This document shows positions 34,682-46,603 of a DNA stretch of 64,000 bases, piece after piece. The notes under the pieces are model-generated. The model saw only the letters and a program-made list of their open reading frames with translations. It had not been told where the DNA came from and did not search any database. Location: positions 62,001 to 126,000 of the forward strand of contig NZ_JAHVHT010000002.1 in the NCBI RefSeq assembly GCF_019802125.1, given 5' to 3'. Every line of letters begins with the position of its first letter. Within the stretch, counting starts at the first letter, position 1. A program made the translations under genes and the position numbers. The DNA comes from Tateyamaria omphalii. Its GTDB lineage: Bacteria > Pseudomonadota > Alphaproteobacteria > Rhodobacterales > Rhodobacteraceae.

Positions 34682-34700
34682 GGCGGGGTTTCACCCCGCC
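34682..34700. repeat. GGCGG-hairpin repeat, copy 1
   Basis: A perfect hairpin with arms GGCGGGG and CCCCGCC around TTTCA, preceded by GGTAC. The GFA gene on the minus strand ends inside it: its TGA stop (34693-34691) is made from the loop. An identical 19-bp hairpin occurs at 35888-35906, with related ones at 50577 and 60179. Confidence 0.75.
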
Positions 34701-35059
34701 ACCACTTCCGCCCAAACCGGCCGATCCCCCTCATGCTCGTGAAAGGAATTCCGCACGCCGGGATCGTCATCCAGACACTGCGCATTGATTGGAAAGGACG
34801 CATCCGGCGACAACGGCTCGCCCAATGATGTCCCGCACCTCCGACAAAACGACCGGTAATAGGTAAAGGGCGGCGCAGGCACCACCGTCTCGATCTCCCC
34901 CTCCCCCGCCAGCAAGGTGAATTGATCCCTCTCAACAAACACGATGGTCGACGTGCCCAGTTTGCGGCACCGCGAGCAATGGCACGTCCCCATCATCTTC
35001 GGCTGCCCCGCGATGACAAAACGCACCGCGCCGCACATGCAACTCCCCTCGATGTCCAT
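34691..35059 (-). CDS. GFA-family zinc protein
   Basis: A 122-residue protein of the glutathione-dependent formaldehyde-activating (Gfa/CENP-V) fold. Zinc ligands are visible as CMCGAVRF (7-14), CHCSRCRK (about 26-33) and CRRCG (about 72-76). Most members of this family have no proven activity; few act on S-hydroxymethyl-glutathione. Its last codons and stop lie in the GGCGG-hairpin repeat. It is divergent from a WYL regulator with a perfect inverted repeat between them, so the regulator may control it. Confidence 0.92.
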   Translation of the reverse strand: MDIEGSCMCGAVRFVIAGQPKMMGTCHCSRCRKLGTSTIVFVERDQFTLLAGEGEIETVVPAPPFTYYRSFCRRCGTSLGEPLSPDASFPINAQCLDDDPGVRNSFHEHEGDRPVWAEVVAG

Positions 35060-36917: not shown

Positions 36918-37715
36918 ATGAAATACTTAGCCGCCCTCCTCCTCGCCCTTCCCACTTTCGCCATGGCCCAATGCGGCCCGGATGCCGCCTGCGAAATCGA
37001 CGGCGGCACCTACCACATGGCGGGCGTCGAAAGCGGCGGAGCTCCCGCTCCCGCGCTCGTCTTTTTCCACGGCCACAACGCCACCGGACAGATGATTTTC
37101 CGGGGCGGCATCCAGTCGGAATTCGCCGACGCAGGCTACGTCGTCATCGCCCCCAACGGCCAACCCATCCCCGGCCGCCAAACCCGCGCCTGGCCGGGCC
37201 GCGAGGGAAGTGCGCGAGACGACGTGTCCTTCGTCATGGACGTTGTCGAGGACGCCAAAACCAAGGCGGGTATTGACCCAAACCGCATCTTTGTCGCGGG
37301 CTTTTCGGCTGGTGGATCAATGGCTTGGCTCATGGCATGCAGAGAAGCGGACGCCTTCGCCGGCTTCGTCTCCATCGCCGGAGCCCTCCGCGAACCCAAC
37401 GACACCGCGGACTGCCCCGATGCCCCCGTCCGCTTCCTCCAAATCCACGGTTTTGCAGACAACCAGGTCCCATTCGAAGGGCGCGCGATCCGCGACTGGC
37501 ACCAGGGCAGCCTGTGGGACAGCCTCGCCCTCGCCCGCACGGCAAACCAATGCCGCACACATCCCGACACCATCGAGATCGGCGACCAGTTTCGCTGTCG
37601 TGACTGGAACGTAAGCTGCGCAAATGGCGCGATAAAATTCTGCGAACATGACGGCGGCCACGGCATGCCGCGCGGCTGGACGACCCTCGCTAAAGAGTGG
37701 TTCGAGGGCTCCTAA
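36918..37715 (+). CDS. Secreted esterase / PHB-depolymerase-like alpha/beta hydrolase
   Basis: A 265-residue exported hydrolase. The signal peptide is MKYLAALLLALPTFAMA. The family resembles LpqC/CE1 carboxyl esterases: PALVFFHGHNATGQM (oxyanion-hole region), the nucleophile elbow GFSAGGS with Ser130, Asp181 in IHGFADNQVPF and His248 in DGGHGMPRG complete the triad. Two cysteine pairs may form disulfides. The substrate is probably a short ester or a polyhydroxyalkanoate- or feruloyl-type ester; that is a family inference. It overlaps the convergent rarD gene by 4 bp. Confidence 0.92.
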   Translation: MKYLAALLLALPTFAMAQCGPDAACEIDGGTYHMAGVESGGAPAPALVFFHGHNATGQMIFRGGIQSEFADAGYVVIAPNGQPIPGRQTRAWPGREGSARDDVSFVMDVVEDAKTKAGIDPNRIFVAGFSAGGSMAWLMACREADAFAGFVSIAGALREPNDTADCPDAPVRFLQIHGFADNQVPFEGRAIRDWHQGSLWDSLALARTANQCRTHPDTIEIGDQFRCRDWNVSCANGAIKFCEHDGGHGMPRGWTTLAKEWFEGS

Positions 37716-38605
37716 GCCGTCGCCCGCATCTGCCGCAACATCGACACGGAGTAGATCACCAGCGCCGCCCAGATCATCGGAAAGGCAATCATACGCGCCT
37801 GCCCAAACGGTTCCTTGAACACCACAACAGCGCACAGAAAAATCATCGTCGGCGCGATGTATTGCAGGATCGCGATTGTCGTCAATCGCAGCCCCTTCGC
37901 CCCGTTTGCGTACAAAATCAATGGTATAGCGGTCACCGCGCCACAACCAAGAAGCAGCCAGTCAGTGCCGGTATCGCCCACCAGAAACTGCCCCTGCCCG
38001 GTGCTCGACAGCCAACCGACATAAGCCAAGGCCGGGATCAACAGGATCAGCACCTCAAGCAGAAACCCTTGGTTGGGGCCGATGGGAAGCTGTTTCTTGG
38101 CGAGCGCATAGAACCCCCACGTCACCGTCAGACCCAAAGCAGCCCACGGTACAACCCCAGCAGACACAGTCAGAACCACCACGGCGCAGGCGGCCAATCC
38201 GATCGCCACCAGTTGCGCTCCGGTCAAACGCTCACGCAGCAGAACCGCGCCCAAAGCCACTGAAAACAAGGGGTTGATGTAGTAGCCCAAGGCTGCGTCC
38301 AGCGCGTGATCGTTGGTTATCGCCCAGACATAGATGCTCCAGTTCAACGTGATCAGCGTTGCGGTCACGCACCCCATCGCCAACATCCGCGGGTTGCGCA
38401 GCGCTGCCATCAGATCACCTGTGCGCCGCAATATGATCAGCAGCACAGCCGCAATCGGCACCGACCAGATAATACGATGCGCAACCACCTCAGCCGGTCC
38501 AAGATGATCCAGCAGCTTCATATAGAGCGGCAGGAAACCCCACAGAAAGTAAGCCGAAACAGCAAAGCCAAGCCCTTGGGGCGTGTCACCGGATGGTTGT
38601 GTCAT
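37712..38605 (-). CDS. rarD: RarD-type EamA transporter
   Basis: A 297-residue membrane protein with ten helices in two EamA repeats. The RarD signature is clear in FAVSAYFLWGFLPLYMKLLD and AEVVAHRIIWSVP at the N-terminus. NWSIYVWAITNDHALDAALG, GYYINPLFSVALGAVLLRER and LQYIAPTMIFLCAVVVFKE follow. The family exports metabolites of unknown identity. It ends overlapping the convergent esterase gene and begins 47 bp after the methyl-transfer operon on the same strand, so it might be co-expressed. Confidence 0.93.
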   Translation of the reverse strand: MTQPSGDTPQGLGFAVSAYFLWGFLPLYMKLLDHLGPAEVVAHRIIWSVPIAAVLLIILRRTGDLMAALRNPRMLAMGCVTATLITLNWSIYVWAITNDHALDAALGYYINPLFSVALGAVLLRERLTGAQLVAIGLAACAVVVLTVSAGVVPWAALGLTVTWGFYALAKKQLPIGPNQGFLLEVLILLIPALAYVGWLSSTGQGQFLVGDTGTDWLLLGCGAVTAIPLILYANGAKGLRLTTIAILQYIAPTMIFLCAVVVFKEPFGQARMIAFPMIWAALVIYSVSMLRQMRATA

Positions 38606-38652: not shown

Positions 38653-41100
38653 TCACGCCTTCACACGCTCGGATTTCGCGTCATACATCGGCTTCAAAGA
38701 CGCCTCAGCCACAACCCGTGTGCCTGCCACGTCGATCTCAAACGTGGACTCCAAAACCTCCGCCGCCGTCTCGCCCTTGCAGGGCACGTAGCCTAGGCCC
38801 ATGGCCGCACCCAGATGGTGTCCATACGCACCTGAACTGAGATAGCCGACGATGTCGCCGTTCCGCACAATCGGCTCGTTGTGATAGAGCAGCGGCTCCG
38901 GGTCCGTCAGCTTGAATTGCAACAGTCGATTTTCCAGCCCCTCGTCCCGCTTGCGCAGCACAGCGTCGCGCCCGATGAAGGACGGCTTGTCCTTCTTCAC
39001 CGCGAAGCCAAGCCCGGCTTCCAGCACGTGATCCTCGCAGGTGATGTCATGGCCGAAGTGGCGGAAGCCCTTTTCGATCCGGCAGGTGTCCATCATGTGC
39101 ATCCCGCACAGTGACATGCCCAAATCCTGCCCCGCCTCGTACAGCGTTTCGAACACGTGGCCCGCCATGTCAGAAGACACGTAGACCTCCCACCCAAGCT
39201 CGCCCACATAGGTCACACGGTGCACACGGGCGAGGCCCATGCCGATCTCGATCTCTTGCGCGGTGCCGAACGGGTTTACCTCGTTCGAGAAGTCGGCGGG
39301 GCTGACCATTTGCAAGAGTTTACGGGCATTTGGCCCCATCACGGCCAGCACGCCCTCGCCCGCCGTCACGTCGGTGATGACCACGTTGAAGTCGCCCACA
39401 TGCCGTTGCATCCACGTCTGGTCGGCCAGCCGCGTCGCTGCCGGAGTCACAACCAGATAGGCGGTTTCGGACAGGCGTGTGACGGTCACGTCCGCCTCTA
39501 TCCCGCCGGTGTTGTTCAGGAACTGGGTGTAGACGATCTTGCCCACTGGCACCGTATAGTTGCCGCCGCCCACGTAGTTCATGAACGCCTCGGCATCGCG
39601 CCCCTCGACCCGGATCTTGCCGAAGGAGGACATGTCATACATGCCCACATTCTCGCGGATGGCCTTGTGTTCGTCGGCGACGTTGCCAAAGAAGTTCTGC
39701 CGCTTCCATGAGTATTCGTAGGCCGGTTCCTGACCGTTCCGCGCGATCCAGTTGGCGCGCTCCCAACCTGCGAATTCGCCCATCACGGCACCATGCTGGA
39801 TCAGGTGGTTGTGGAACGGGCTGCGACGCACGCCGCGTGCCGTCGCCTTTTGCCGGTACGGGAAGTGGTCGGCGTAGAGCAGGCCCAGCGTCTCAGTCGA
39901 ACGTTCGGCGAGGTAGGTCTTGTTGCCCTGGAAGGGCTGCATCCGGCTGATGTCCACGTCGCCCAGATCGAAGGGCTTGTCGCCATCTTCCATCCACTGC
40001 GCCAGCGCCATACCGGCACCGCCCGCCGACTGGATACCGATGGAGTTGAAGCCGCAGGCGACCCAGACATTGTCCATCTCGGGCGCGAGGCCAAGGTGGT
40101 AGGCGTCGTCTGGGGTGAAGCTCTCCGGCCCGTTGAAGAAGGTGTGAATTCCCGCCTCTGCCAGCATCGGCATGCGGTTTACCGCCGCTTCGAGGATCGG
40201 CTCGAAGTGGTCGAAGTCTTCTGGCAGTTGGTCGAATTCAAAGTCCTTGGGGATGCCATTCAGCGCCCAGGGTTTGGCGTTCGGCTCGAACGCGCCGAGC
40301 AGCATTTTGCCTGCATCTTCCTTGTAGTAGGCACACTCGTCCGGGATGCGCAGCACGGGAAGTTGCTGCAAGCCCTGAATGGCCTCGGTCACGATGTAGA
40401 AGTGCTCGCAGGCTTGCAGCGGCACGTTCACGCCCGCCATCTTGCCCACTTCACGGCCCCACATACCTGCGCAGTTCACGATCATGTCGCAGGCGATATG
40501 ACCGCTGGTGCCATCTTCGCCCTGCCAGTCGACACCGGTTACCTTGCGGCCTTCGCGTACGATGTGGGTCACTGCAACGCGCTCCTGCACCTTCGCACCG
40601 CGCTGACGGGCACCTTTGGCCAAGGCCAACGCGATGTTGGCCGGATCGCCTTGCCCGTCCAGCGGCAGATACACACCGCCTGTCACATCATCGATGTTCA
40701 GATGGTCGTAGCGCGCCTTGACCTCGGTCGGAGAAATCTCCTCGACCTCAACGCCGAAGGCGCGCGCCATACCTGCCTGACGTCGGAGTTCCTCCAGCCG
40801 TTCGTCGGTCAGCGCGGCGGTGATCGAGCCTACACGCTTGAAGCCGGTCGCGACTCCGGTTTCCGCTTCCAGATCGCCGTAAAGCTCCTGAGAATAGCGT
40901 GCCAGCTTGGTCATGTTGGCCGTGGCCCGAAGCTGAGCGATCAGGCCAGCGGCATGCCAAGTGGTGCCGCAAGTGAGTTGCTTGCGCTCCAGCAAAACCA
41001 CATCTTTCCACCCCAGCTTGGTCAGGTGGTAGGCGACAGAACACCCAATGACACCGCCACCAATGATGACGACGCGGGCGTGGGAGGGAAGGTCAGGCAT
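38653..41100 (-). CDS. FAD-dependent dehydrogenase fused to GcvT domains (sarcosine/dimethylglycine dehydrogenase-like) 1
   Basis: An 815-residue enzyme. The N-terminal DAO-type flavin domain (about 1-375) has VVIIGGGVIGCSVAYHL at 10-26 and His49 in CGTTWHAAG, the histidine that carries covalent FAD in the dimethylglycine/sarcosine dehydrogenase family. A linker domain follows, then a GcvT-type folate-binding domain (about 420-815: GWERANWIARNGQEPAYEYS; NYVGGGNYTVPVGKIVYTQF; GYLSSGAYGHHLGAAMGLGY). The family oxidises N-methyl groups and passes the carbon to tetrahydrofolate. It is the last gene of a six-gene operon, 9 nt after the homocysteine methyltransferase gene. Exact substrate is not determined. 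Confidence 0.93.
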   Translation of the reverse strand: MPDLPSHARVVIIGGGVIGCSVAYHLTKLGWKDVVLLERKQLTCGTTWHAAGLIAQLRATANMTKLARYSQELYGDLEAETGVATGFKRVGSITAALTDERLEELRRQAGMARAFGVEVEEISPTEVKARYDHLNIDDVTGGVYLPLDGQGDPANIALALAKGARQRGAKVQERVAVTHIVREGRKVTGVDWQGEDGTSGHIACDMIVNCAGMWGREVGKMAGVNVPLQACEHFYIVTEAIQGLQQLPVLRIPDECAYYKEDAGKMLLGAFEPNAKPWALNGIPKDFEFDQLPEDFDHFEPILEAAVNRMPMLAEAGIHTFFNGPESFTPDDAYHLGLAPEMDNVWVACGFNSIGIQSAGGAGMALAQWMEDGDKPFDLGDVDISRMQPFQGNKTYLAERSTETLGLLYADHFPYRQKATARGVRRSPFHNHLIQHGAVMGEFAGWERANWIARNGQEPAYEYSWKRQNFFGNVADEHKAIRENVGMYDMSSFGKIRVEGRDAEAFMNYVGGGNYTVPVGKIVYTQFLNNTGGIEADVTVTRLSETAYLVVTPAATRLADQTWMQRHVGDFNVVITDVTAGEGVLAVMGPNARKLLQMVSPADFSNEVNPFGTAQEIEIGMGLARVHRVTYVGELGWEVYVSSDMAGHVFETLYEAGQDLGMSLCGMHMMDTCRIEKGFRHFGHDITCEDHVLEAGLGFAVKKDKPSFIGRDAVLRKRDEGLENRLLQFKLTDPEPLLYHNEPIVRNGDIVGYLSSGAYGHHLGAAMGLGYVPCKGETAAEVLESTFEIDVAGTRVVAEASLKPMYDAKSERVKA

Positions 41101-41109
41101 GGCGTATCC

Positions 41110-42006
41110 TCAGACGATTGTGTGGCCGTCCGCCCGCAGGCGTTTGGCGATTTCAGCAATATGGGCGGGGCCGACCTCGCAGCACCCACCGACGATGGTG
41201 GCGCCTGAGGCGACCCAGGTCATGACGTGGTCGGCGTAAAGCTCCGGTGTGAAGTCGCGGCGCAGGGTCAGGCTGTCGACGGTGGGTTTGTCGTCGAGAA
41301 AGCCTTCGGTGATTTGTTCGAAGCCGTTGGCATATCCACCGATGGGTAGTGTCGTGCCGCTCAGCGCGTTCAGTGCGGGCAGGATGGCTTCGGGCGTGGA
41401 GCAATTGATCAGGATGGCGCTGGCCCCGCCGTCTTGAGCGATGGGCACGGCATCAGCAACGGCCTCACCCGACCGCAGGCGTGATCCATCGCGGTCATCC
41501 ACCGTGAGCGCGAGCCACACGGGCAAGCCAAGCGGAACGGTGGCTGCAAGGATATCCCGGGCATGGTTGAGGGACGCCACCGTTTCACAGATCAGAATGT
41601 CACACGCAGGGGCAAGCAGCTCTGCCACCTCCGTAAAGAGCGCGACGGCCTCTTCGGACTCTGGATGCAAGTCTGGCCGGTAGCTTGCGCGCAATGGTCC
41701 GATGGCCCCGGCGATGCGGCCGGATCCATGTTCGCGCCGGGCAGTACGCGCCTCGTAAAGCGCGCTTTGATGCAGGGCAGAGAACGCTCCCTCGACCGGC
41801 GTACCGGTCAGACGGTCGTGGTGAATCGCATAGCTGTTGGTCGTGGCAATCGTGGCATCGGCAGCAAAGAAGTCCTTGTGCACAGCCGTGACCATGCCGG
41901 GGTGATCCAGCATGATCTGTGTCGACCACAGCGGCGTCGGCCTGTCCCCGGCGCGGTGCACCAGTTCCTGCCCCATACCACCATCCAGAAGTGTGATCTC
42001 TGCCAT
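41110..42006 (-). CDS. Homocysteine S-methyltransferase family protein
   Basis: A 298-residue TIM-barrel enzyme that uses zinc-bound homocysteine. Zinc ligands are Cys202 (ILINCSTPEA) and Cys275/Cys276 (IVGGCCEVGP), the standard set. Other boxes are LLDGGMGQELVHRAGD (6-21) and TNSYAIHHDRL. The methyl donor could be glycine betaine, S-methylmethionine or dimethylsulfoniopropionate. The two flanking dehydrogenases for dimethylglycine- or sarcosine-type substrates make glycine betaine attractive, giving dimethylglycine and methionine. That assignment is inference. Confidence 0.93.
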   Translation of the reverse strand: MAEITLLDGGMGQELVHRAGDRPTPLWSTQIMLDHPGMVTAVHKDFFAADATIATTNSYAIHHDRLTGTPVEGAFSALHQSALYEARTARREHGSGRIAGAIGPLRASYRPDLHPESEEAVALFTEVAELLAPACDILICETVASLNHARDILAATVPLGLPVWLALTVDDRDGSRLRSGEAVADAVPIAQDGGASAILINCSTPEAILPALNALSGTTLPIGGYANGFEQITEGFLDDKPTVDSLTLRRDFTPELYADHVMTWVASGATIVGGCCEVGPAHIAEIAKRLRADGHTIV

Positions 42007-42025
42007 CGCTCTTTCTCAAAGGGCG

Positions 42026-42072
42026 CCGGAAACCGACACGGTTTCCGGTCCGTTTTCTGGGTCAGAAAACGG
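42026..42072. repeat. Paired-hairpin intergenic repeat, copy 2
   Basis: Hairpin one is at 42026-42048 (arms CCGGAAACC and GGTTTCCGG, 5-nt loop). Hairpin two is at 42050-42072 (arms CCGTTTTCTG and CAGAAAACGG, 3-nt loop). It fills the 66-bp gap between two operon genes and abuts the stop codon of the upstream one. The second hairpin's arms are identical to those at 9124-9146. Confidence 0.85.
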
Positions 42073-44517
42073 CTACGCGCGCAGCCGTTCGTTCTCCGGA
42101 TCCCACAGGGGCTGATCGGGTTGCACGGTGGCGGCGTAGCGCTTGCCAAACATCTCGACCTCAAGCGTTGTGCCGGGCGAAGACAGGTCCGTCTGCACGA
42201 CACCCAACGCGACAGAGGCGTTGATACGGTGCCCCCATGCGCCCGAGGTTGTCTCGCCCACAACCTTGTCTCCGCTCCAGATCGTCGACATGTAGGGCGC
42301 GTCCTGTTCGCCCGCGTCCACCAGCATGGTGACAAAGCGCTTCTTCGATCCCTGCTGCTTTTCGTTCTGCAGCGCGGCCTTGCCCGGGAAGTCCTGCGGC
42401 TTGTCCAGCTTGACGAAGCGGTCAAGCCCGCCTTCGAACATGGTGTAGTCGGTCGACAAATCGCCCTTCCAGGTGCGGTAGCCTTTTTCGACCCGCATGG
42501 AGTTCAGGGCGTACATACCGAACGGCGTGGCTCCGGCATCGCGGATGGCGTCATAGACCTGTGCCGCCTGATCGGTCGGTGCGTGCACCTCCCAACCCAG
42601 TTCACCGACAAAGGACACGCGTGCCATGGTCACTGGCACGCCAGCAACGGTCGCGGATTGGTGCGTCAGCCAGCCAAGCGACAGGTCTGCGTCCGAGATA
42701 CCTGCGAACAGGTCGCGCGACTTGGGTCCGGTCACAAGCATGGTGGTGACGTCTTTGGACAGGTCCTTGATCTCCACGCCTTCCGGTGCGCGCGAAGCGA
42801 GCAGTTCGAAATCGTGCCACTGCGCGACGGCAGCCGTCATGATGGTGAAGTCGTCTTCGCCGTGACGGATCACCGACACTTCGGTCAGGATACGGCCTCG
42901 GCTGTCGGCAAAGTAGGACAGGTTCATCCGCCCCGCCTTGGGCAGTGCGCCGGTGATCTGGGTGCGCAGGAATTCCGCTGCACCTTCACCCTTCAGCGAA
43001 TAGCGCGAGAAGCCGCACATATCGATGACACCGACGCCATCGCGGACGGCTTCGACCTCTTCCTTAATCCGGATCTCCCACGGACCGGAGCGGTTCCAGG
43101 TCTGCGTCGACTCTTCGGAGATGTCATCGCCGTCCTTGGCAAACCAGTTGGCCCGCTCCCAACCGTTATACGCACCCATCTGGGCGCCATCGGCCTTGAG
43201 CCGCGCGTCGTTTGGCGACAGCTTCTTGTTCCGCCCCGCAGGCCATTCGTGATGTGGGAAGTGCATCGCGTATTCGTGGCCGTATGTTTCGAGCGCCTTC
43301 TTGAGGCTGTAGTCGTGATCCGCGTAGTCGGTGTAGCGGCGCGGATCGACGGCCCACATGTCCCACTCGGTCTCGCCGTGCATGATCCACTCGGACAACA
43401 CCTTGCCCGCGCCACCGCCTTGGGCGATGCCGAAGGTGAAGGAGTGCGCCTCGAACGCGTTTTTGACACCGGGCATCGGCCCGATCATCGGCAACCCGTC
43501 GGGTGCGTATGGGATTGGGCCGTTGATGTTGCGGCCCACACCAGCGGTGCCGAGCGCAGGCACACGCTCCATCGCGTCTTCGATGTAGAATTCGAGCCGC
43601 TCCAGATCATCGGGGTACAGCTGGAAGCTGAAGTCCTCTGGCATCGGATCATCGGGCGTGACCCAGTGCGCCTTGCAGTTCCGCTCGTACGGGCCGAGGT
43701 TCAGGCCGTTCTTGTCCTGGCGCAGGTAGTAGCTGATGTCCACGTCGCGGATCATCGGCATCTTGTGGCCCTTTTCCTTGGTCCACTCGGCCAGTTCGGG
43801 GATCTCTTCGGTCAGGAAATACTGGTGAGACATCACCACCATGGGCACGGTGCGCCCGCCGAAGGGCTTGAACATCTCGCCCACGCGCTGCGCGTAGTAG
43901 CCTGCACAGTTGGCGACATACTCGGCGCGGATGTCGCCCTTTTCTGTCTTCACGATCCACTCGTCACCGTCGCGGTCGATGCCGATCACGGGGCAGAAAC
44001 GTTCGATGCGACCACCGGCATCGCGCGCGCCTTTGGCCATCGCCTGGGTCAGCTGAGCGGGGTCGATGTCACCGTCAAGCGGATCCCACAGACCACCCGC
44101 CAAATCATGGGTTTCCATGAACGGGTTGAACTCTTTCAACTCATCCGGCGTGCACATCTGCATCTCAAGGCCCTGATAGCGGCCCATGCCTGCGACCCGC
44201 TCGAACTCCTGCATCCGCTCCTTTGAATGGGCCAGACGCAGCGCGCCCGTGACGTGGTAGTTCATCGGGTAGTCAACGTCGTCTGCCAGCGTCCGGTACA
44301 TCTCCAGACCGTAGCGCTGCATGTTCATCACCGCCCACGAGGACGAGAAGTTGGGGCAGTTGCCTGCGGCGTGCCAAGTGGAGCCTGCCGTCAACTCATT
44401 CTTTTCCAAGAGCACGCAGTCTGTCCAGCCCGCCTTGGCCAGATGGTAGAGTGCCGACGTGCCCACCGCACCGCCGCCGATGATGACCACGCGGGCCGTT
44501 GTTGGAAAATCGCTCAT
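42073..44517 (-). CDS. FAD-dependent dehydrogenase fused to GcvT domains (sarcosine/dimethylglycine dehydrogenase-like) 2
   Basis: An 814-residue paralogue of the enzyme at 38653-41100, with the same plan. The FAD motif VVIIGGGAVGTSALYHL is at 10-26, His49 (AGSTWHAAG) is in the covalent-FAD position, and a GcvT-type domain follows (GWERANWFAKDG; MTARVSFVGELGW-like MARVSFVGELGWEVH; ETTSGAWGHRINASVALGVV). The flavin domain differs clearly from its partner (NCPNFSSSWAVMNMQRYG in place of LIAQLRATANMTKLARYS), so the two probably act on successive or different N-methyl substrates. It begins 2 nt after the GFA gene and ends at the paired-hairpin repeat. Confidence 0.93.
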   Translation of the reverse strand: MSDFPTTARVVIIGGGAVGTSALYHLAKAGWTDCVLLEKNELTAGSTWHAAGNCPNFSSSWAVMNMQRYGLEMYRTLADDVDYPMNYHVTGALRLAHSKERMQEFERVAGMGRYQGLEMQMCTPDELKEFNPFMETHDLAGGLWDPLDGDIDPAQLTQAMAKGARDAGGRIERFCPVIGIDRDGDEWIVKTEKGDIRAEYVANCAGYYAQRVGEMFKPFGGRTVPMVVMSHQYFLTEEIPELAEWTKEKGHKMPMIRDVDISYYLRQDKNGLNLGPYERNCKAHWVTPDDPMPEDFSFQLYPDDLERLEFYIEDAMERVPALGTAGVGRNINGPIPYAPDGLPMIGPMPGVKNAFEAHSFTFGIAQGGGAGKVLSEWIMHGETEWDMWAVDPRRYTDYADHDYSLKKALETYGHEYAMHFPHHEWPAGRNKKLSPNDARLKADGAQMGAYNGWERANWFAKDGDDISEESTQTWNRSGPWEIRIKEEVEAVRDGVGVIDMCGFSRYSLKGEGAAEFLRTQITGALPKAGRMNLSYFADSRGRILTEVSVIRHGEDDFTIMTAAVAQWHDFELLASRAPEGVEIKDLSKDVTTMLVTGPKSRDLFAGISDADLSLGWLTHQSATVAGVPVTMARVSFVGELGWEVHAPTDQAAQVYDAIRDAGATPFGMYALNSMRVEKGYRTWKGDLSTDYTMFEGGLDRFVKLDKPQDFPGKAALQNEKQQGSKKRFVTMLVDAGEQDAPYMSTIWSGDKVVGETTSGAWGHRINASVALGVVQTDLSSPGTTLEVEMFGKRYAATVQPDQPLWDPENERLRA

Positions 44518-44519
44518 GG

Positions 44520-44891
44520 TCAGGTCTCCCTTTGCGGAACGTTGTCCGCGATGTCGTAATAGTCGCCCTTGTCGGCGGTGAAGATATGGGCGCGCAGGTG
44601 CAGCCCGGAGGGGCCGTCAACCGACCCCATGGAAAAGCTCATCCATTCCTCGGAATGGTCCTTCCAGAACAGGAAGGACCCGCATGTTGGGCAAAAGCCC
44701 CGCTTTGCCGTGTCGCTGGCCGCAAACCAGCGCACTTCGCCCTCGATCGTGATGTTTCCGTCGGGCGCATAGGACGATGCCCATGTGTGCCCGGACTGCT
44801 TGCGACACTGGTTGCAGTGGCAATTGGCCGGTTGCCCAACCTCACCCGTGACCGTGTAGCGAACGGCACCGCACAAACAACTGCCCTGCAT
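44520..44891 (-). CDS. GFA-family zinc protein (operon-borne)
   Basis: A 123-residue Gfa/CENP-V-fold protein. Zinc ligands are CLCGAVRY (5-12), CHCNQCRK (about 25-32) and CPTCG (about 67-71). It is encoded 1 nt after the LysE gene and 2 nt before the dehydrogenase gene, so it is firmly part of the operon. Demethylation by the dehydrogenases yields formaldehyde when tetrahydrofolate is not loaded. A formaldehyde-glutathione adduct role would fit, though activity of this family is doubtful in general. Confidence 0.92.
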   Translation of the reverse strand: MQGSCLCGAVRYTVTGEVGQPANCHCNQCRKQSGHTWASSYAPDGNITIEGEVRWFAASDTAKRGFCPTCGSFLFWKDHSEEWMSFSMGSVDGPSGLHLRAHIFTADKGDYYDIADNVPQRET

Positions 44892-44892
44892 C

Positions 44893-45513
44893 TCAGGTCC
44901 TCCCCGGTGTGGAGGACGCACCGAGCAGCACGCCGTAGATCACAAAGCATACGGCCATGACGCGGCGCACCCAGACATTGAAAACCGCGCCAAGTGCAGC
45001 GCGGCCGATGCCTGCACCCAGAGCCGTATAACCCGAGTAGCTGAGCGCGGTGATCGTCAGCGCGGTCGGCATGATCAGCCACATCTGGTCCCATACAGGC
45101 ACGTCTGGCTGTACGAACTGCGAAAAGGCAGCGAGGTAGCCAGCCACGCTTTTAGGGTTGATCGTCGCAATGGCAAAGGCGCGAAGATAGATTGACTGCC
45201 CGGACTGCGCCGACACCTTCGGCAGTGTCCGCGCCAGAAGCCAGCCACGCACGCCCAGATAGATCAGAAAACCTGCACCAATCAGCTTTGCCGCGAAGAA
45301 TAGCGTCGGCGATGCCGCAATGAGTGCCGTCACGCCCGCCGCCGACAGGATCAGGAACAGCGTGGCTTGTGTCAGGATGGCCAGGATCCCGGGAACGGAG
45401 CGGCGGAAGCCGAGGGTCATGCCGTTGGTGATGCAGTTGACCGCGTTGGGACCGGGCGTGGTGACAAAAACCACCCAGAACACCGCGAATATGATCCACC
45501 CCTCGATCGACAT
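44893..45513 (-). CDS. LysE-family translocator
   Basis: A 206-residue inner-membrane exporter with six predicted helices. The N-terminal TPGPNAVNCITNGMTLGFRR is the LysE/RhtB signature. GFLIYLGVRGWLLARTLPK and the NPKSVAGYLAAFSQFV segment follow in the usual order. The family exports amino acids or related metabolites. Its start codon overlaps the regulator's stop by one base (TGATG), and it precedes the GFA gene by 1 nt. It may export an amino acid or intermediate from the pathway encoded downstream. Confidence 0.93.
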   Translation of the reverse strand: MSIEGWIIFAVFWVVFVTTPGPNAVNCITNGMTLGFRRSVPGILAILTQATLFLILSAAGVTALIAASPTLFFAAKLIGAGFLIYLGVRGWLLARTLPKVSAQSGQSIYLRAFAIATINPKSVAGYLAAFSQFVQPDVPVWDQMWLIMPTALTITALSYSGYTALGAGIGRAALGAVFNVWVRRVMAVCFVIYGVLLGASSTPGRT

Positions 45514-46085
45514 CAGTAGACCGGTGGCGCGATGGCCCAGATCGCGACCGCAGGCGCGTCATAGGGGTTTTTCCAGCGGAACGGCTCGCCCCGTATGCGG
45601 AAACTGTCACCGGGCGCGATGGCAAAGGTCTGCCCTGCAATCTCAAGTTCCAAACGACCCGAAATCAGATAGCCAACCTCCTGCGTGGGGCGTGTGACCG
45701 CCTCAGTGATCTCGCTATGCGGCTCGAAGGTGGAATGCACCATCTCGAAATCGTCGGTAAGGTCGGGGGACAGGAGCTCTTCGACCAGACCGGCCGTACG
45801 CGATCCGATGGGGCGGCGGGCGCCGCTGCGCACGACATACCCTTCTTCGCGCGCGGGAGCCGCACCACGGCGGAACAAAGTCGAGACAGCGATGTCCAGC
45901 TTGACCGCGATGTGCCGCAGATCGGTGATCGAAGGTTCGGACAAATCACGCTCAACCTGACTGACCCACCCGACCGACCGGCCCAGAGCGTCTGCCATAT
46001 CCTGCAACGTCAACCCTCGTGCCTTGCGCAGTGCCCGCAGATCGGCGCCTAGGCTGTGGGCAATATTCGGATCAGATTGCAGCAT
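45513..46085 (-). CDS. XRE-family regulator with C-terminal cupin domain
   Basis: A 190-residue regulator. The helix-turn-helix is about 10-65 (LGADLRALRKARGLTLQDMA; SVGWVSQVERDLSEPSITD). The C-terminal cupin is about 105-185 (TRPTQEVGYLISGRLELEIA; APGDSFRIRGEPFRWKNP) and should bind a small effector. This architecture is common in regulators of amino-acid and amine catabolism. It is the first gene of the six-gene operon. A perfect inverted repeat sits directly before its start, so autoregulation is likely. Confidence 0.93.
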   Translation of the reverse strand: MLQSDPNIAHSLGADLRALRKARGLTLQDMADALGRSVGWVSQVERDLSEPSITDLRHIAVKLDIAVSTLFRRGAAPAREEGYVVRSGARRPIGSRTAGLVEELLSPDLTDDFEMVHSTFEPHSEITEAVTRPTQEVGYLISGRLELEIAGQTFAIAPGDSFRIRGEPFRWKNPYDAPAVAIWAIAPPVY

Positions 46086-46088
46086 GCG

Positions 46089-46115
46089 CGTGAAATTCCC
46101 TTTCCGAATTTCACG
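46089..46115. promoter_or_regulatory. Perfect inverted repeat before the XRE-cupin start (candidate operator)
   Basis: Arms CGTGAAATTC (46089-46098) and GAATTTCACG (46106-46115), 10 bp each, with a 7-nt spacer CCTTTCC. It ends 3 nt before the regulator's ATG on the minus strand. It would be a natural autoregulatory site for the whole operon, or could act as an mRNA hairpin covering the ribosome-binding site. Confidence 0.65.
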
Positions 46116-46150
46116 TAAGGGAAAGCAAAATGAAAAATCAAGCTAGTTTT

Positions 46151-46603
46151 TCACGGACGCGCAAAAACATCCCCGAGAATCGCCGACAGCGCATCCGCAT
46201 CGCCCTGAGAAAAGGCATCCGGCTGGTCGCTGTCGATGTCGAAGACGGCAATCAAATCTCCAGCAGCATTTCGGACCGGCAGCACCAGTTCGGAGCGTGT
46301 GGAACTGGCACATGCGATGTGACCGGGAAAGACATCGACATCCGCCACGAGCTGCACCTCACCCGTGCGCGCGGCAGCACCGCAGACGCCGCGCGAGAAC
46401 GGGATCTGCAGGCACCCATGGCCGCCCTGATATGGGCCGATCTTCAGCAGCTCAGGCCCGGTCACGCGATAGAATCCGGTCCAGTCAAACCGGTCATCGC
46501 TATGATGCACCTCGCAAGTGACAGTCGCCATCAGGGAGACGGGGTCATCTTCGCCTTCGGTCAGGCTTTGAATCGTTTTTGCAAGAGTCGTGTAGTCTGG
46601 CAC
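46151..46603 (-). CDS. Free methionine-(R)-sulfoxide reductase (GAF domain)
   Basis: A 150-residue GAF-fold enzyme that reduces free methionine-R-sulfoxide. FDWTGFYRV, KIGPYQGGHGCLQIPFSRGV and DVFPGHIACASSTRSELVLP are the family signature. Cys64, Cys74 and Cys98 have the same spacing (10 and 24 residues) as Cys84, Cys94 and Cys118 of the E. coli enzyme. It lies upstream of the methyl-transfer operon on the same strand, but with a 65-bp gap that contains the operator, so it is probably transcribed separately. Confidence 0.93.
   Translation of the reverse strand: MPDYTTLAKTIQSLTEGEDDPVSLMATVTCEVHHSDDRFDWTGFYRVTGPELLKIGPYQGGHGCLQIPFSRGVCGAAARTGEVQLVADVDVFPGHIACASSTRSELVLPVRNAAGDLIAVFDIDSDQPDAFSQGDADALSAILGDVFARP

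Follow-up and report, generated by a model that had tools for sequence, protein, structure and literature searches.

Which reactions does a cluster catalyze that joins two tetrahydrofolate (THF)-linked flavoenzymes to a homocysteine methyltransferase, and how is it controlled? The question is raised by six genes in a 64,000-nucleotide stretch of Tateyamaria omphalii DNA (Rhodobacteraceae; assembly GCF_019802125.1, contig NZ_JAHVHT010000002.1, positions 62,001 to 126,000), hereafter the window, from a genome of 4.49 Mb in 12 contigs. The genes encode an XRE-cupin regulator, a LysE-type exporter, a GFA-family protein, a DMGDH-like flavoenzyme (DH2), a homocysteine S-methyltransferase family protein (HMT) and a second flavoenzyme (DH1) (Table 1). 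The cluster is a conserved, largely ordinary betaine-catabolism operon with an already published core, and the new element here is the operator in front of the regulator gene. Gene content, catalytic residues, conservation and the sequence and position of the operator were observed directly. The cluster probably encodes the later, inducible steps by which glycine betaine (choline, carnitine) is broken down, with control by the XRE-cupin protein and with HMT as an accessory enzyme.

Operator and Regulator

The XRE-cupin gene has a conserved palindrome directly in front of it, an arrangement that would fit an autoregulator. When up to two mismatches were allowed, 74 of 79 upstream stretches of family XRE genes contained one or more sites and 44 of the 79 contained two, against an average of 0.01 loci with a site in shuffled stretches; the pattern was derived from the same 79 stretches, so that this count is not independent, and the shuffles preserve base composition only. 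Placement of the operator across whole genomes is the fairer test. Exact copies of the operator number 71, spread over 59 of 248 Rhodobacteraceae genomes, and the reversed-pattern control has none. An XRE-cupin match starts within 200 bp of 70 of these sites; the only other one is the site in the window, which precedes the XRE gene by 3 bp. Since all 71 exact sites precede an XRE-cupin gene, the palindrome appears to be a dedicated, local operator. No promoter was found in a sigma-70 scan of the operator region. A literature search, confined to the accessible portions of the sources, for XRE-cupin proteins with dimethylglycine or sarcosine genes, for LysE or GFA with betaine and for an ETF/betaine regulon found nothing on control of this cluster.

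The genome holds one further operator site at up to two mismatches. It has one mismatch and lies 93 bp before a 549-aa open reading frame (ORF) encoding an ETF-ubiquinone oxidoreductase (ETF-QO; PF05187 162 bits, PF21162 147 bits), through which dehydrogenases of this kind would be expected to pass on their electrons. Within the genus the site (up to two mismatches) is present in 11 of 20 genomes, this one included, and the other nine differ upstream; across the 11 genomes, identity is 99% in the arms, 87% in the spacer and 82% in the remainder of the 150 bp. An ETF-QO match was obtained in 118 of 120 family genomes, and 30 loci were examined for the operator. With the operator at 2 of these 30, ETF-QO was ruled out as a family-wide target. 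Control of ETF-QO by the XRE-cupin protein is plausible as a lineage-level link predicted from the site. Beside this site (L212:5104-6041) lie a glyoxalase-family gene and a gene for a SoxR-type regulator (NCBIfam SoxR above cut-off).

Table 1. Features of the cluster, its operator and the flanking genes (window coordinates).
Feature	Position	Strand	Basis or remark
Operator site 1 (two mismatches), lying 40 bp farther upstream than site 2	46129..46155	.	Overlaps end and stop codon of GAF gene
Operator site 2, perfect palindrome CGTGAAAWW-N9-WWTTTCACG, 27 bp	46089..46115	.	3 bp before XRE start codon
XRE-cupin transcriptional regulator, 190 aa, probable repressor/sensor of the operon	45513..46085	-	HTH_31, HTH_3 and Cupin_2 above cut-off; operator directly in front
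LysE/RhtB-type exporter, 206 aa	44893..45513	-	PF01810, 63 bits
GFA-family protein, 123 aa from ATG 44891	44520..44891	-	PF04828, 78 bits (ORF read from upstream GTG)
DH2, DMGDH-like flavoenzyme with THF (GcvT-like) domain, probable dimethylglycine dehydrogenase	42073..44517	-	DAO, FAO_M, GCV_T, GCV_T_C
Two hairpins in the DH2-HMT gap	42026..42071	-	Sequence
HMT, homocysteine S-methyltransferase family, 298 aa	41110..42006	-	PF02574, 194 bits
DH1, the other flavoenzyme with a THF domain, probable sarcosine dehydrogenase	38653..41100	-	DAO, FAO_M, GCV_T, GCV_T_C
RarD/EamA transporter gene, flanking, 47 bp downstream of cluster	37712..38605	-	Near in 25 of 100 family loci
GAF-domain gene, flanking, 65 bp upstream of cluster	46151..46603	-	Near in 43 of 100 family loci

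Conservation of the Cluster

A preliminary description had reported six genes on one strand with four tight junctions and a 66-bp gap filled by hairpins, and all six ORFs and gaps were confirmed. With the GFA start at ATG 44891, the gaps are -1 bp (XRE/LysE), 1 bp (LysE/GFA), 2 bp (GFA/DH2), 66 bp (DH2/HMT) and 9 bp (HMT/DH1). The 66-bp gap contains two adjacent perfect hairpins with 3-nt loops, at 42071-42051 (9-bp stem) and 42048-42026 (10-bp stem), neither having a run of T on the coding strand. The second hairpin was found at two exact and two one-mismatch places genome-wide (reversed-pattern control, one), and these few copies ruled it out as a high-copy genomic repeat.

DH2 was searched in the 248 Rhodobacteraceae genomes and matched at 1e-50 in 236 of them, paralogues included; 100 family loci, mostly one genome per genus, were then hand-picked from about 150 DH2 matches listed. 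Statistics of association between genes at these loci ignore kinship, shared ancestry being left in. Near DH2 were found DH1 in 93 loci, XRE in 77, HMT in 58, GFA in 46, LysE in 39 and an MtgB-like gene in 26. HMT follows DH2 in 58 of 58 loci and precedes DH1 wherever DH1 is present. Among 27 arrangements, the full six-gene order occurs most often (21 of 100 loci), and 20 of the 36 loci with HMT in named genomes hold all six genes in order, 14 of them in Tateyamaria and others in genera including Roseobacter, Sulfitobacter and Pseudooctadecabacter. Retention of the order in 20 of 36 and 21 of 100 loci indicates an arrangement beyond chance. The neighborhood search proposed earlier for the six-gene order across Rhodobacterales thus found it conserved across Rhodobacteraceae, and not rare. 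By HMT, the closest named relatives are Tateyamaria (90-91% identity). Two further loci, L030 and L038, have the GAF gene and HMT with no DH2 or DH1 match, and L030 has two GFA matches in between.

The core has been described before. In passages of the Roseobacter litoralis genome paper of 2011, a trio of DMGDH, homocysteine methyltransferase and SARDH was proposed for glycine betaine, and the methyltransferase was proposed as a new class of bacterial betaine-homocysteine methyltransferase (BHMT) from its location, its domain and growth on betaine (PMC3141670). Since this was printed in 2011, the similar proposal for HMT in the preliminary description is not new. The same three core genes are adjacent in R. 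litoralis (RLO149_c039090-c039110, encoding SARDH, homocysteine methyltransferase and DMGDH4) and R. denitrificans (RD1_0018); the likeness to the window genes is one of description, and those passages name no XRE-cupin, LysE, GFA or operator (PMC3141670). For R. pomeroyi, SPO3400 and SPO3396 are named DMGDH and SARDH, respectively, in part of a 2015 paper (PMC4744692), and SPO3398, for which an antisense RNA is noted, appears as a homocysteine S-methyltransferase in a portion of another (PMC4809877). By annotation, SPO3396-SPO3400 therefore holds SARDH, homocysteine S-methyltransferase and DMGDH as here, and differs in two further genes, SPO3397 and SPO3399.

The Two Flavoenzymes

DH2 and DH1 share the same four domains (DAO, FAO_M, GCV_T and GCV_T_C), each above its Pfam cut-off, with 32% sequence identity between the two along their length. 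A difference in domain make-up was thereby ruled out, and the earlier view that the two dehydrogenases differ in the flavin domain was abandoned. Family and context support the proposal in the preliminary description of two THF-linked demethylating flavoenzymes, plausibly serial on dimethylglycine and then sarcosine, DH1 being near DH2 in 93 of 100 loci. The best Protein Data Bank (PDB) match of DH2 is mammalian DMGDH (570 bits), and DH1 scores 468 bits to mammalian DMGDH and 401 bits to DMGO, all nearly full length. Human DMGDH holds FAD covalently through His91, and His225/Tyr259 are called the catalytic dyad of DMGO in a reference title within the same paper, of which passages were available (PMC5082570). 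The equivalent of His91 is aligned and those of the dyad are conserved in both DH2 and DH1. Mammalian DMGDH (4pab, 4p9s, 5l46) and Arthrobacter DMGO (1pj5) therefore have in common with DH2 and DH1 a near whole-length match, the FAD-linking His, the His/Tyr dyad and the THF domain. At DMGO position 552, where an acidic residue presumably serves THF chemistry, DH1 has Asp as does DMGO, whereas DH2 has Glu, as also seen in the mammalian DMGDH alignment. Because DH2 is closer to mammalian DMGDH, it is likely, from sequence, that DH2 is the dimethylglycine dehydrogenase and DH1 the sarcosine dehydrogenase.

Outside the family, 19 DH2 loci were sampled from 27 matching genomes; a twentieth locus, L184, belongs to Rhodobacteraceae and is not counted. 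Sixteen of the 19 have an MtgB-like (PF06253) gene close to DH2, none has HMT there, and five have no DH1 match; within the sample, HMT beside the dehydrogenase pair was seen only in Rhodobacteraceae. A Sinorhizobium meliloti plasmid carries DH2, a two-piece DH1 match and an MtgB-like gene, and on a plasmid of Neorhizobium NCHU2750 the pair DH2-DH1 is followed by a dioxygenase alpha subunit gene, with carnitine genes nearby. Genes for ETF, FolD, PurU and an ABC transporter accompany the plasmid pairs of Rhizobium and A. vitis, which also have an aminotransferase, and a Paracoccus locus. These neighbors fit demethylation that feeds THF and ETF. The MtgB-like gene in 16 of 19 loci, together with the residues shared with DMGDH and DMGO, supports demethylation of dimethylglycine and sarcosine. 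In the T. omphalii genome, two places (G000:C2:646255-648893 and G000:C4:110666-114413) hold an MTTB-family gene and a GCV_T frame (812 and 829 aa) no more than 2 kb apart, and these are possible demethylation modules for other quaternary amines.

HMT and the First Demethylation

The genome has five PF06253, two PF02574 (one of them HMT) and two PF00809 genes, and a PF02310 gene lies near the second PF02574 gene and a DUF1638 gene. One of the PF06253 proteins is 67% identical to the PF06253 protein of S. meliloti. Putative counterparts of all parts of MtgBCDE (split methionine synthase/betaine methyltransferase) are hence encoded outside the window, and HMT is a second PF02574 protein distinct from the MtgE candidate. 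An MtgB orthologue is present in 56 of the 58 genomes with HMT at the locus and in 35 of the 42 without it, indicating that HMT adds to the Mtg route and does not replace it. The cluster had been described as self-contained, with HMT performing the first demethylation; the separate candidates and the 56 of 58 genomes speak against the former and make the latter doubtful, as does the need for MtgC and MtgD in R. pomeroyi, where mtgC and mtgD mutants were unable to use betaine (PMC12478193, in part). In the same source, as far as its available text goes, the first betaine-demethylation step of roseobacters is reported only in 2025, R. pomeroyi demethylates betaine by MtgBCD, and MtgE is SPO1884. 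On N-osmolytes MtgBCD were up and MtgE was slightly down, and proteins of the predicted dimethylglycine and sarcosine steps were up, the locus tags of the latter being absent from that text (PMC12478193). HMT could still provide an extra betaine- or sulfonium-using route.

HMT has a PF02574 fold with the Cys, Cys-Cys metal-site residues (AlphaFold model, pLDDT 91.5). Cys202, Cys275 and Cys276 are conserved in 95 of 95 relatives, and R178-S-G-E181 is an invariant motif of its own. Against PDB structures, HMT scores 80 bits with Escherichia coli MmuM, 46 bits with Thermotoga MetH and 34 bits with human BHMT. The best NCBIfam model, homocysteine S-methyltransferase PRK09485 (MmuM), gave 129.8 bits, below its cut-off of 215. 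HMT is 31% identical to E. coli MmuM (5dml/5dmm) over the structure alignment, and differs in falling below the family cut-off, in lacking an mmuP partner and in its own motif. Fold was dropped as a guide to the methyl donor, MmuM, MetH and BHMT being nearly tied. In the HMT tree MmuM and MtgE sit on very long branches and deep support is weak, so that the tree can be read only as separating HMT from these two.

Accessory and Flanking Genes

LysE is below the cut-off of each of the five NCBIfam models it matched. Near MtgB-like genes, LysE was found in 0 of 26 and GFA in 1 of 26 family loci, and this avoidance is also seen within XRE-type loci (p = 0.012 and 0.015; kinship ignored). An association of LysE with HMT in the raw counts (LysE accompanied by HMT in 31 loci and without it in 8; p = 0.0008) was rejected at p = 0.085 within XRE-type loci. 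Our guesses are that LysE exports methionine or sarcosine and that GFA guards against formaldehyde. A second GFA-family gene (PF04828, 61 bits) lies on the same strand at 34691-35059, about 9 kb from the first.

The RarD gene is probably outside the unit. The GAF-domain gene, which we take to be free methionine sulfoxide reductase-like (fRMsr-like), is near none of the 26 MtgB-type family loci. It is retained in 8 of its 43 family loci despite the lack of HMT; as an obligate functional member it was therefore dropped, and vertical synteny suffices as an explanation.

Proposed Pathway and Alternatives

We infer substrates, inducibility, direction of control, electron route and the roles of LysE and GFA as follows. 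Demethylation of betaine itself would most likely fall to MtgB/C/D proteins whose genes lie elsewhere in the genome. DH2 would then oxidize dimethylglycine, and DH1 would turn the resulting sarcosine into glycine. Both would hand a one-carbon unit to THF in their GcvT-like domains, and electrons would pass to ETF and from there to ETF-QO. HMT may act as an accessory homocysteine methyltransferase that makes methionine while the pathway runs. The XRE-cupin protein may act at the tandem pair of palindromes to control its own operon, and perhaps regulates ETF-QO too in some members of the genus.

Several points weigh against this pathway. Although they carry such genes, R. litoralis and R. denitrificans made no use of dimethylglycine as a source of carbon or nitrogen, for which the authors offer an explanation in passages of their paper (PMC3141670), and SPO3400 and SPO3396 were equated with DH2 and DH1 by annotation and gene order, not by alignment. 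The split between dimethylglycine and sarcosine rests on closeness to mammalian DMGDH, the comparison having covered DMGDH and DMGO sequences. Two SoxA-type genes (sarcosine oxidase alpha) lie elsewhere in the genome (G000:C3:197868 and G000:C1:181713), scoring 1103 and 1110 bits on edge-cut frames (cut-off 1164); sarcosine need not, therefore, pass via DH1, and our confidence in the pathway was lowered slightly for this reason. The portion available of a Donghicola study likewise names soxBDAG as responsible for the sarcosine step in this family (PMC7574528). Purified Bmt (MtgE) of Phaeobacter inhibens forms methionine from betaine without cobalamin (PMC12366255), which leaves room for a direct homocysteine route. 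With regard to ETF-QO, the operator is present at only two of the 30 family loci examined, that of this genome included, and within the genus the stretches adjoining the site are about as conserved as its arms.

The methyl donor of HMT admits several readings. Use of a sulfonium donor (S-methylmethionine or DMSP), with methionine made from algal sulfonium compounds arriving with betaine, is possible though somewhat unlikely; it is favored by MmuM being the nearest relative both among PDB structures and among NCBIfam models. That HMT is a true BHMT of a new bacterial class, carrying out the first demethylation so that the operon encodes a full betaine-to-glycine route, we consider unlikely. HMT does lie between DH2 and DH1 in every arrangement holding all three, HMT and MtgB-like genes rarely share a locus (both 6, HMT only 52, MtgB only 20, neither 22), and P. 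inhibens MtgE, despite being a MetH module as well, accepts betaine in vitro (PMC12366255). However, the exclusion is not significant within the 77 XRE-type loci (p = 0.20), MtgB accompanies HMT in nearly all genomes, the NCBIfam betaine-homocysteine model gives 67.7 bits against a cut-off of 338, and methionine made 1:1 with betaine would, we reason, greatly surpass need. Moreover, Tyr77 of human BHMT is Ala in 80 of 95 HMTs and Tyr160 is Thr in 93 of 95, both of which we take to be betaine-binding. This residue test is a weak one, because the MtgE of this genome has Gly/Thr there and MtgE of P. inhibens still takes betaine in vitro (PMC12366255). HMT as a pathway-induced second MtgE, passing part of the betaine methyls from methyl-cobalamin on MtgC to methionine, would accord with its co-occurrence with MtgB, with a cysteine set identical to that of MmuM and MtgE, and with the opposite responses of MtgE and MtgBCD in the R. 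pomeroyi passages cited above; HMT is nevertheless closer in sequence to MmuM than to MtgE, and we hold this reading to be distinctly improbable.

It is equally doubtful that one or both flavoenzymes act on other N-methyl compounds, sarcosine being left to the SoxA-type oxidases. The 14 GCV_T matches of the genome, two of which are the SoxA-type genes, and the Rhizobium and A. vitis pairs, which lie beside an ABC transporter and an aminotransferase and not MtgB, would agree with such substrates, but the recurring MtgB-like partner, the carnitine/dioxygenase context and the R. pomeroyi proteome on N-osmolytes, as given in part of PMC12478193, favor the betaine pathway. A more elaborate scheme is highly speculative: HMT would draw methyls from MtgC methyl-cobalamin (as a second MtgE) or from algal sulfonium or betaine, LysE would vent surplus methionine, and the arm, up to ETF-QO in part of the genus, would be switched by an XRE-cupin repressor sensing a methylated intermediate.

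Biological Significance

As an osmolyte, glycine betaine is abundant in the sea, and in Rhodobacteraceae the steps of its breakdown that act on dimethylglycine and sarcosine are probably encoded by this cluster. The remaining interest lies in the dedicated operator and the role of HMT. The operator is a precise regulatory signature open to testing, and HMT offers a direct test of the link between betaine breakdown and methionine synthesis.

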